64,000 nt of DNA, from the NCBI GenBank assembly GCA_017405305.1, contig JAFRAT010000009.1, positions 62,001 to 126,000 on the forward strand, given 5' to 3'. Below, piece by piece: positions 47,762 through 62,269 of the stretch (the first letter of the stretch is position 1; each line of letters begins with the position of its first letter). Both the position numbers and the translations under genes were made by a program. This DNA comes from Aeriscardovia sp. GTDB taxonomy: Bacteria; Actinomycetota; Actinomycetes; Actinomycetales; Bifidobacteriaceae. The notes beneath the pieces were generated by a model. It did no database searches and was not told the DNA's origin. It was given only the letters and a program-made list of their open reading frames with translations.

Positions 47762-48106
47762 ATGCCCGCTCCGAACGACGCCTCGGCGCGCAAACGCCGC
47801 ACGATCATCGTCATCGCCGTGTGCCTGGCGGTCCTGTGCTGCGCTGGCGGCGGCGTATGGGCCTGGGAGAACGGTCAGCAGCAGGCGCACGATTCGGCGT
47901 TCTTCTCCTGCCAGCAGTCCGAGGAATCCGCGCAAACGGCCATTGCCAGCGCCCGCAACACCACAGAGAAACAGAAACCGACGGTGTGCATCTCCTCCAT
48001 GACCACCCAGCAGCTCGACGCGAATTCCCGGACCAACACGGAACTCATCCAGGACCTCAGCTCCGCCGACGCTGCTGCCCAGAGGGCGGCGCGCCAACAG
48101 CGGTGA
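47762..48106 (+). CDS. Small single-pass membrane protein, two-cysteine family
   Basis: The 114-residue product has a basic N-terminus (SARKRR), one hydrophobic segment (TIIVIAVCLAVLCCAGGGVWAW, about residues 14-35), then an exported region with SCQQSEESAQTAI and VCISSMTTQQL. I do not recognise a named family. It resembles the protein encoded at 61649-62269 in the order and spacing of TM, CQxS and CxxSM motifs. AGAAAGGAC precedes the ATG. It sits between ackA and tRNA-Pro, on the opposite strand from the tRNA. Confidence 0.75.
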   Translation: MPAPNDASARKRRTIIVIAVCLAVLCCAGGGVWAWENGQQQAHDSAFFSCQQSEESAQTAIASARNTTEKQKPTVCISSMTTQQLDANSRTNTELIQDLSSADAAAQRAARQQR

Positions 48107-48130
48107 TCCGGCGGCACGCCCGCCATCAAC

Positions 48131-48167
48131 AGCGAAGCCGCCCGTTCTTCCAACGGACGGCTTCGCT
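48131..48167 (-). terminator. Hairpin after tRNA-Pro
   Basis: AGCGAAGCCG with an inner CCGTT pairs with AACGG and CGGCTTCGCT (each strand perfect apart from single unpaired bases). It directly follows the tRNA-Pro 3' end on the minus strand and lies after the plus-strand gene ending at 48106, so it may act in both directions. No U-tract. Confidence 0.65.
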
Positions 48168-48168
48168 G

Positions 48169-48245
48169 TGGTCGGGCCGACAGGATTTGAACCTGCGACA
48201 TCCTGCTCCCAAAGCAGGCGCGCTACCAAACTGCGCTACGGCCCG
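48169..48245 (-). tRNA. tRNA-Pro (TGG), CCA encoded
   Basis: Acceptor CGGGCCG pairs with CGGCCCG, discriminator A, and CCA is encoded at 48171-48169. The anticodon loop TTTGGGA gives TGG. The T-loop GGTTCAAATCC is canonical. It is the only one of the three tRNA genes here with an encoded CCA. Confidence 0.93.
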
Positions 48246-48398
48246 AAAGAATCAGAACAACGTCCGTTATTATACCGCGGGCGGCTTAGAAAACAAGCGG
48301 CGGGCTGACGGCTGTCATAGACTGTTCCTGTTCGTTTCCATCATCGTTCGCGATGCCCGATCGCCGGAAGCATTCGGGAACCGTGGAGAAAGGCAATC

Positions 48399-50225
48399 AT
48401 GAGCCGTCATGGTGCATCCCGTCGACGCCATCCCGTTGCTATCACGGTGGGCGTCATCGCTGCCATCGTCGTTCTGCTCGCTGTCGCGGCTGCCGGCGTC
48501 AAACTGGCCAAGCAGGCCGAAGAGGTCAAGGAGCACGAGTCGCAGGCCATTGGCCTGATCCAGCCATACAAAGACGCGGCGTCCGTCACCGACGTCGAAG
48601 GGCTGCTGTCGGTGCTGCCGCAGGTCCAGCAACAGACGCAGGAGGCCGATTCCATCGCCCACGGCACGCTGTGGAACATCGCGGCGCACCTGCCATTCGT
48701 CGGCGGAGGCGTCAGCGCAGCGCAGTCCATGACGAGCATCGCCAACGACTTCTCCACGCAAGCCGTCCCGCAGCTGGCGACGAGCCTGGCGCGCCTGTCC
48801 GCCGCGAACCTCAACGGCGGCGCCGAGACAATCAACCTCCATCCGCTGACCGCCGCCGAACCGCAGATCGCCGCCGCGAACGCCGCCGTGCAGAAGGACA
48901 ACGCCGCCTACCAGGCTCTCAGGTCGAAGGGCCTGAATAATATCCCGCAGCTCGAGGACGCCTACACGAAGGGCGCCGCCGAACTGAGCCGGATCAGCCA
49001 ACTGAGCCAGAGCGTAGCCGACATGACGAAGATCCTGCCGGCCTTCCTGGGCCGGAACGGCACCAAGACGTACCTGCTCGTCTCGGCCAGCCCAGCGGAA
49101 TCCCGCTCCTCCGCCGGCCTCATCGGCGACGTGGGCAAAATCACCATCACCGACGGACGCATCGCCATCGACGGTTTCGTGCCCAACAGCGCGCTCATCC
49201 CCTACGGCTCCGCGAACGACACCGCGGCCGCCAAAGCGCTGTTCGCCGGACCGCTCCACCCAGATTTCGACATCCGCGACCAGATGATGGACCCGGATTA
49301 CGCGCAGGCCGCTGCCGGCGTCACCGAGATCTGGCAGCGCAGCCCGTACCGGTGCGAGGTCGACGGCGTCATCACCGTCACCCCGGCTTTCCTGCAGGCC
49401 GTCAACCAGCTCGGCTCCCCGTTCACCCTCAGCAACGGGCAGACCATCAGCGGCAGCAACACGGCCCAGTACCTCGAGAACACCGTGTACCTCCAGGATT
49501 CCTCCAACAAAACGCTGACGGACGCGTTGGAAATCGAAGTGGCCCGCGACAGCATCCAGAACCTCTTCACCGGCATGGACGTCTCCAAGCTCTTCAGATT
49601 CGCCGAGGCACTGCCGGCCCTGGCCCAGGACCGCGACATCCAGGCCACGTCCTCCGACCCATCCGTCCAGACGCTGCTGACGGAGGACGACTTCACCCAG
49701 GCTCCGCAGTCCAACGCTGTCGACCCGACCGTCGGCGCCTACGACAACGAGCAGCTCGCCTCCAAGATGGGCTGGTATCTCCATCGCTCGGCGACCGTGA
49801 CGCGCACGTCCTGCAACCAGAACGGCTCGCAGACCTACCATGTGGCCTACACCCTGAAGAACGTCCTGACGCCGGCGGAAGCCTCCGGCCTCAACACCTA
49901 TATCGACGGCCAAGGCTGGGGTCTTGCCAAAGCGGCGCCGGGCGACTCCGTCGACAGGATGGTCTTCTACGCGCCCAAAGGCGGCGAGATCTTCAATATG
50001 TCCGTCACCGGCGATGCTTCGACGCCGGCACAGTACCAGTACAACGGCATCGCTTGGTCCGACGTGGCGACGACGGCTCCTGGCCAGTCCACCGTCTATA
50101 GCTTCGACGTGACCACCTCGCCGCAGGCGAAGACCGCGCTGCGGCTCGACCAGACGCCAAACTCCGACGGCGTTTCCGGTATCACGTACAGCACCCGGGC
50201 TTGCGCCCTGCCGTCACAGAACTGA
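48399..50225 (+). CDS. DUF4012 domain-containing protein
   Basis: The 608-residue product has an N-terminal membrane anchor (VAITVGVIAAIVVLLAVAAAGVKLA, residues 12-36), a helical region, and the DUF4012 core (LPAFLGRNGTKTYLLVSASPAESRSSAGLIGDVGKITI, then DFDIRDQMMDPDYAQAAAGVTEIWQ). Proteins of this family are often found with polysaccharide genes in actinobacteria and are thought to act outside the membrane; the precise role is unknown. GGAGAAAGG precedes the ATG. The C-terminal codons form the left arm of the terminator. The neighbouring polysaccharide genes are convergent with it. Confidence 0.88.
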   Translation: MSRHGASRRRHPVAITVGVIAAIVVLLAVAAAGVKLAKQAEEVKEHESQAIGLIQPYKDAASVTDVEGLLSVLPQVQQQTQEADSIAHGTLWNIAAHLPFVGGGVSAAQSMTSIANDFSTQAVPQLATSLARLSAANLNGGAETINLHPLTAAEPQIAAANAAVQKDNAAYQALRSKGLNNIPQLEDAYTKGAAELSRISQLSQSVADMTKILPAFLGRNGTKTYLLVSASPAESRSSAGLIGDVGKITITDGRIAIDGFVPNSALIPYGSANDTAAAKALFAGPLHPDFDIRDQMMDPDYAQAAAGVTEIWQRSPYRCEVDGVITVTPAFLQAVNQLGSPFTLSNGQTISGSNTAQYLENTVYLQDSSNKTLTDALEIEVARDSIQNLFTGMDVSKLFRFAEALPALAQDRDIQATSSDPSVQTLLTEDDFTQAPQSNAVDPTVGAYDNEQLASKMGWYLHRSATVTRTSCNQNGSQTYHVAYTLKNVLTPAEASGLNTYIDGQGWGLAKAAPGDSVDRMVFYAPKGGEIFNMSVTGDASTPAQYQYNGIAWSDVATTAPGQSTVYSFDVTTSPQAKTALRLDQTPNSDGVSGITYSTRACALPSQN

Positions 50226-50243
50226 AGGGCGCAAGCCCGGGTT
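50194..50243 (+). terminator. Terminator embedded in the DUF4012 stop region
   Basis: A 17-bp perfect stem (50194-50210 with 50227-50243). The left arm lies inside the last codons of the gene and the TGA stop (50223-50225) sits in the loop. TTCC follows. Confidence 0.75.
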
Positions 50244-61310: not shown

Positions 61311-61317
61311 ATTCCAG

Positions 61318-61351
61318 TGCCATACTGCAATGACACAGCAGCAGTATGGCA
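61318..61351. repeat. Inverted repeat downstream of the Nudix gene
   Basis: TGCCATACTGC pairs perfectly with GCAGTATGGCA across 12 bases. No U-tract and no gene; role unknown. Confidence 0.55.
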
Positions 61352-61437
61352 TTACTCGCTGCCGGCATGACCGGCGGAGCATCGCCGTCGCCCGCAGCCT
61401 GCGCCACACATCCAGCAGCGTCATCATCGACATAACA

Positions 61438-61469
61438 AAAGGCCTTGCGGCTCTCGTCGCAAGGCCTTT
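61438..61469 (-). terminator. Terminator of tRNA-Arg
   Basis: AAAGGCCTTGCG pairs with CGCAAGGCCTTT. On the minus strand it is followed by TGTTATG after further T residues, just past the tRNA 3' end. Confidence 0.85.
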
Positions 61470-61474
61470 GCCGG

Positions 61475-61548
61475 TGCGCCAGGCAGGATTCGAACCTGTA
61501 ACCTTCTGATCCGTAGTCAGATGCTCTAATCCGTTGGGCTACTGGCGC
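61475..61548 (-). tRNA. tRNA-Arg (ACG)
   Basis: Acceptor GCGCCAG pairs with CTGGCGC. The anticodon loop CTACGGA gives ACG, read after A-to-I editing. The T-loop GGTTCGAATCC is canonical. CCA is not encoded. Confidence 0.93.
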
Positions 61549-61648
61549 GCATCGCTTCATCTCAAAACGACAGGGCCAGTATACACGAAGAATCGAAAAG
61601 CGCAAACGGAAATGTCGTTTTGCTCGTTGCACCCTACGAACGAACCGC

Positions 61649-62269
61649 TCACTTCGCCGCGTTCATCTGATCGAGGCCATTGGAGAGCATCTGCTTGGCC
61701 TGCTGCTTGTCGATCGAACCGGTCCTGATGGCGTTCTGCGCGTAGGAATAGCCGTCCTTCAGCAGACTGTCCGCTAAGACGAAGGCATCGACTGACTGCT
61801 GGTTCATCTGCGTGTCGTCGCTCAGCTCGTCGTTCGACATGGACGCGGAGCAGGCCAGCGGCCGCTGCACCGTCTCCCCTGCGATTTCCGCCTTCAGCTC
61901 CGCAAGCTTGCCCGCGTACTGCGGATGTTCCTTGACGATCGACGCGCCCAGCGCTATATCCTTGGCATACTCCCGGTCGTACGTGGCTTTGGCCGACTCC
62001 AACGCCTTCTGCGAACTCTGGCACGCTGCGAGCGCCGACCGGTGCTCATGCCACTGGTCGAACTTCCACAGTCCTACGCCCGCGCCAACGCACACGGCCA
62101 GCACCATGAGCATCATGATCCAAGCGCGCCGATAGTTTCGCGGAGCCGGCTTTGGACCGTCGGCGTTGTCCGGAACGTCGGCGAAGGCGGCGGCATGGTC
62201 GGACGGTCCGCCATCGGCTAGAGCAGGCTCAACCGATTCGGGTTCAGTCGATTCAGATTCTGCTGTCAT
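61649..62269 (-). CDS. Single-pass membrane protein, two-cysteine family
   Basis: The 206-residue product has an acidic N-terminal segment, one transmembrane segment (AWIMMLMVLAVCVGAGVGLW) and an outer helical domain with ALAACQSSQKALESAKA and PLACSASMSNDELSDD. The function is unknown. I chose the ATG at 62269 because GAGGAG lies 7-12 bases before it. An upstream ATG at 62381 has a better ribosome binding site (GGGAGAACC) but is in another frame, so a frameshift near 62310 may have cut the original start. The C-terminal part resembles the protein at 47762. Confidence 0.65.
   Translation of the reverse strand: MTAESESTEPESVEPALADGGPSDHAAAFADVPDNADGPKPAPRNYRRAWIMMLMVLAVCVGAGVGLWKFDQWHEHRSALAACQSSQKALESAKATYDREYAKDIALGASIVKEHPQYAGKLAELKAEIAGETVQRPLACSASMSNDELSDDTQMNQQSVDAFVLADSLLKDGYSYAQNAIRTGSIDKQQAKQMLSNGLDQMNAAK

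Follow-up and report, generated by a model that had tools for sequence, protein, structure and literature searches.

Two short two-cysteine membrane proteins beside capsule genes of Aeriscardovia sp. belong to one Bifidobacteriaceae family

The capsule/EPS region of an Aeriscardovia sp. genome (assembly GCA_017405305.1, contig JAFRAT010000009.1) contains two small genes, here termed P1 and P2, whose products each combine a transmembrane (TM) segment with two cysteines. Are the two proteins related, to which wider family might they belong, and what might they do beside the capsule genes? The window analysed is a stretch of 64,000 nucleotides, in which the features of the two genes are as follows:

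47762-48106, + strand: P1, a short family member of 114 aa
47801-47860, + strand: P1 transmembrane helix, approximately residues 14-33, after ARKRR (from sequence and alignment)
47909-47911, + strand: P1 Cys50, aligned with the first family cysteine (C1)
47987-47989, + strand: P1 Cys76, in CISSM..L, aligned with the second family cysteine (C2)
61649-62269, - strand: P2, a family member of 206 aa
62066-62125, - strand: P2 transmembrane helix, approximately residues 49-68 (from sequence)
62021-62023, - strand: P2 Cys83, C1 by family alignment
61850-61852, - strand: P2 Cys140, C2 by family alignment, in CSASM..L

The original prediction had described these products as two members of a single-pass family, and both ORFs and the motifs quoted for them are found at the positions that it named. 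It had also pointed to a difference in length between the cysteines, which is real, although the counts given (27 and 57 residues) should read 25 in P1 and 56 in P2. According to the positive-inside rule, the N-terminus of P1 would lie on the inner side of the membrane. In the case of P2, an upstream ATG (MSEAEAEL...) with a good Shine-Dalgarno sequence occurs at 62253-62468 (- strand) in a different frame, and comparison with the left P2 copy of genome G024 shows an 11-nt gap parting the two frames; P2 therefore probably has an internal start, at 62269 or at an ATG slightly upstream of it, or is translationally coupled. A single-sequence structure model of P2 was poor (pLDDT 55). Pfam searches of P1 and P2 revealed no Wzz or Walker ATPase (kinase) domain, no PF01451 LMW tyrosine phosphatase domain and no FIVAR (PF07554) match.

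Direct comparison of P1 with P2 by BLASTP gave 36% identity over 69 aa (E = 5e-10 for a single comparison), mainly in the TM segment and around the first cysteine. As a guard against a mere match of hydrophobic helices, an HMM was constructed from 55 relatives, with P1, P2 and their genus orthologues left out. Among all ORFs of the window, this model found exactly P2 (6e-20) and P1 (5e-17), which establishes the two as members of one family. A model restricted to the ectodomain matched P2 at 1.4e-9 and P1 at 6e-4; the latter value is weak but better than every shuffle, the lowest E-values being 0.017 for 300 shuffles of P1 and 0.012 for all shuffles.

The ORF at 62523-62720 (- strand), once suggested to be a third, decayed member, was rejected: it contains no TM segment, matches neither Pfam, NCBIfam nor the family profile, and has no homologue in the sampled relatives. 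It is enclosed in a stretch of approximately 1.3 kb (62470-63750) with degenerate ORFs that is private to the source genome: 120 other Bifidobacteriaceae genomes gave no meaningful match to it. The actual third family member of the source genome is a protein of 568 aa on another contig (C12:8058-8564), likely orthologous to the sole copy that relatives with genomes of 0.6-0.9 Mb retain. Other profile matches within the source genome (E = 5e-4 to 0.05), including a DsbA-like protein, are confined to the TM segment and are not members. Genome G000, at 1.1 Mb and rated 99.96% complete, is small for Bifidobacteriaceae.

The search for the family in other Bifidobacteriaceae, as had been advised, shows that it extends far beyond two loci. 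Single-sequence searches matched 45 and 46 of 121 Bifidobacteriaceae genomes. A 37-row profile detected the family in each of 24 selected genomes (1-9 copies each, 89 in total), a frequency that is not unbiased, since the majority had been shown beforehand to carry it. Outside the Bifidobacteriaceae the family is nearly absent: among 184 genomes from the order, four gave weak matches, of which three are devoid of the cysteine pair and one (L089, f3) shows a TM-C...C layout. A scan of the genome collection found no conserved stretch with a broad alignment and eight named Bifidobacterium loci with a narrower one. Tandem arrays of 2-5 members occur in other Bifidobacteriaceae (L119, L120, L121, L122 and L139).

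Of 62 members collected with a profile that set no condition on cysteines, every one has C1 and 60 have C2, both exceptions being truncated proteins. Columns A39, C43, C100 and L109 are invariant in the 37-row alignment, the rows of which were selected partly on cysteine. The single-pass layout with paired outer cysteines thus holds across the family, and P1 and P2 conform to it: basic residues are followed by the TM segment and by xxAxxxC1 within about 20 residues of it, and after C2 come small residues in the pattern [AS]-x-[ST] and, at position +9, a Leu. From cysteine to cysteine, the usual though not obligatory spacing is 54-64. P2 (57) fits this range, whereas P1 (26) and its orthologues (26 and 29) fall outside it. 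Because all other relatives show the long spacing, P1 is a deletion variant, shortened by about 30 residues in the inter-cysteine region, and profile and tree place it accordingly; the variable insertion originally proposed is thereby replaced by a shortening of P1. Most relatives are 300-900 aa in length, and both P1 and P2 are unusually short. The tree joins the two (96/89) and places them, with weak support (89/75), in one clade with members linked to BY-kinases.

The long members are composed, in order, of a disordered cytosolic N-terminus, a basic patch, the TM segment, the cysteine bundle, a FIVAR-like bundle and a low-complexity tail. In place of the disordered N-terminus, a zinc ribbon occurs in genus g8 and an LMW tyrosine phosphatase in genome G105. 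P1 and P2 contain neither a recognisable FIVAR bundle nor any tail. An AlphaFold model of the Bifidobacterium pullorum member, based on a 10-row alignment (pLDDT 89.8), shows two three-helix bundles which share one long helix. Foldseek gave local matches of this model to the FIVAR-type structure 7jrm (1.8 A over 67 residues) and to NagH 2ozn (1.4 A over 76), with no whole-length match. The best Pfam FIVAR score among the relatives (L060, 28.1 bits) is just under the cut-off of 29.2. By predicted fold, and weakly by profile, the second bundle thus appears FIVAR-like. Like FIVAR modules (PF07554; NagH 2ozn, Embp/Ebh repeats), the family is predicted to form all-helical three-helix bundles at the cell surface; unlike them, its core bundle has an invariant cysteine pair and no Pfam match. 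In this regard, FIVAR modules are putative carbohydrate or fibronectin binders (PMC7846122).

In the model, helix 1 has C1 close to its beginning, and the loop ahead of the long helix contains C2, so that both are probably membrane-proximal and could pair. Outer disulfides are plausible, since one protein of the source genome is DsbA-like (Thioredoxin_4, with a CPAC motif) and anchored in the membrane. A second type of cysteine pair, most often C-x5-C-[GP]-I-G, lies in the last 14 residues of 15 of 60 members (L010, L036, L052 and 12 others). At the opposite end, the N-termini of L002, L015 and L014 contain repeated E-T-Q / T-x-[AVM]-[ILMF]-P motifs, 5-7 times as frequent as in shuffles, which might be Ser/Thr kinase sites read by FHA domains.

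The suggestion that the family may be undescribed agrees with the databases: the cysteine core has no model in Pfam (P1, P2 and 10 long relatives searched) or NCBIfam (P1, P2 and five long relatives). A profile search of the PDB gave no credible match, and the family was not found in the open-licence literature. No paper was found for the annotation name "Colicin transporter". The surface-associated protein of the SAG1386/EF1546 family (NF042931) resembles these proteins in its short hydrophobic N-terminal anchor, but the score of 18.9 bits is far under the cut-off of 80. The P1/P2 family is apparently uncatalogued, but the surface module underlying it is of a known type.

The neighbourhood of P1 comprises the following genes:

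46359-47585, + strand: ackA (PF00871), next to P1 on its upstream side in each of the three genus genomes
48399-50225, + strand: DUF4012 envelope protein (PF13196, E = 1e-29), the first protein gene 3' of P1
50405-52054, - strand: priming sugar transferase (PF02397, E = 6e-65)
52533-53987, - strand: Wzz/BY-tyrosine-kinase (PF02706 and PF13614)

The order is thus ackA, P1, tRNA-Pro and then a capsule/EPS module formed by the last three genes, with 1.3 kb between P1 and the DUF4012 match. In B. longum 105-A, the trio cpsD-DUF4012-wzz is recognised as the EPS block (PMC5412050), and it is the same trio as beside P1. Like the DUF4012 protein of such clusters (BL105A_0406 in B. longum 105-A), P1 and P2 are membrane proteins associated with an EPS block, but they are unrelated to it in sequence and domain. 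P2 is situated between a tRNA-Arg gene and a capsule cluster (Caps_synth, GT2, Wzx and LMW-PTP genes) which continues past the end of the window. Two of the three family members of the source genome therefore lie in its capsule region.

Our tentative reading is that P1 and P2 are accessory membrane proteins of capsule/EPS assembly or export. They are miniaturised members of a single-pass family with a predicted N-in/C-out orientation, the ectodomain of which is predicted to be a helical bundle with its membrane-proximal ends probably joined by one C1-C2 disulfide, usually followed by the FIVAR-like bundle and a flexible tail. As small subunits on the membrane side, beside the Wzz/BY-kinase and the priming transferase, they might contact nascent glycan or assembly partners through the cysteine-paired outer stub, and the N-terminus would face the kinase side.

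Evidence for a capsule link is strongest in one part of the family. At eight Bifidobacterium-type loci, a family member is the next gene 3' of a Wzz/BY-kinase, on the same strand. A WDIPP-type cytosolic motif, D[IV]V...WDIPP.xF, in a pattern written after the sequences had been seen, occurs in 10 of 5771 ORFs, all of them family members: the eight adjacent to BY-kinases, a fusion to LMW-PTP and one more; it is absent from P1 and P2. The fusion (L060 / L117, G105:C1:1689498) joins a family member to an LMW tyrosine phosphatase (PF01451, 8e-21), contains a motif related to WDIPP and is encoded near a DUF4012 gene and a priming transferase gene. Among the members tested, L060 is the only one with the phosphatase domain, and its order of LMW-PTP, TM helix and two-cysteine plus FIVAR ectodomain is a receptor-type layout. 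The family thus resembles the Wzz/Wzc BY-kinases and LMW-PTP phosphatases (Wzb) in genomic company, and in one direct fusion, but neither P1 nor P2 itself contains a kinase, Wzz or phosphatase domain.

Across the family, the EPS link is only partial. Of the 51 members in marker-bearing genomes, only eight (P1 and P2 among them) lie within 20 kb of a marker, compared with approximately 1.7 expected. A priming transferase is missing from 11 of the 24 family-bearing genomes, and a BY-kinase match from 12. Since about half of these genomes are without EPS markers, most members cannot serve the capsule only. Genome G010 has neither marker, yet its P1 orthologue stays at ackA.

An equally probable explanation is that the family consists of general envelope stalks or sensors, i.e., membrane-anchored, wall-spanning FIVAR-type proteins with many tasks, such as wall binding, adhesion and Ser/Thr-kinase signalling via Thr-rich cytosolic tails, of which the capsule is one. 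P1 and P2 would then be short stalks in an incidental capsule neighbourhood. The presence of the family in each of the 24 genomes, many of which have no EPS markers, the location of the tandem arrays away from such markers, the N-terminal zinc ribbon of the g8 members and the putative ligands of FIVAR modules argue for this explanation. In addition, cytosolic Thr-x-x-hydrophobic-type repeats are 5-7 times more frequent than in shuffles, for a motif chosen after looking. The strict BY-kinase adjacency, exclusive WDIPP motif and phosphatase fusion combined in one subfamily argue against it, as does the placement of two of the three source-genome members in the capsule region.

A further reading, which we consider rather unlikely, makes the family the missing transmembrane part of a bifidobacterial capsule tyrosine-phosphorylation switch. 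The outer cysteine-paired FIVAR-type bundle would sense the growing polysaccharide, WDIPP would dock the BY-kinase, and one member, carrying the phosphatase itself, would be a receptor-type tyrosine phosphatase of bacteria. P1 and P2 would be reduced descendants of this arm.

The control of bifidobacterial EPS/capsule synthesis is poorly known. Here, a widespread, multi-copy bifidobacterial surface family, apparently without a model, has one arm genetically locked to capsule tyrosine-kinase/phosphatase genes, and the WDIPP motif and the phosphatase fusion provide a concrete, testable lead. Bifidobacterial EPS/capsule affects adhesion and macrophage uptake (PMC5412050).

It is very unlikely that P1 and P2 are functionless, decaying fragments of longer members, as their short length, the out-of-frame 5' end of P2 and the truncation of a second P2 copy in G024 might suggest, because both genes are under purifying selection: dN/dS against G024 is 0.17 for P1 (orthologue) and 0.16-0.28 for P2. 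Moreover, both cysteines are retained, and P1 is syntenic in three species, its orthologues in both other genus genomes searched being 113-118 aa long at the same site 3' of ackA. Least probable of all is a partnership of P1 with the adjoining acetate/phosphoketolase genes (xfp-pta-ackA), for which the adjacency to ackA in all three genus genomes speaks, but P1 sits in the membrane and has an outer domain, a tRNA-Pro gene follows it, and neither P2 nor the BY-kinase-linked members have such a neighbourhood.

In G024 (L113, G024:C56), P2 is duplicated (5326-6105 and 10174-10749) around a cassette of glycosyltransferase (GT), putative polymerase and acyltransferase genes which differs from that of the window. 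The right copy, which shares 94% identity with P2 of the window, is the one truncated after C1. The arrangement suggests that cassettes are exchanged at the capsule locus, with P2 as the homology arm.
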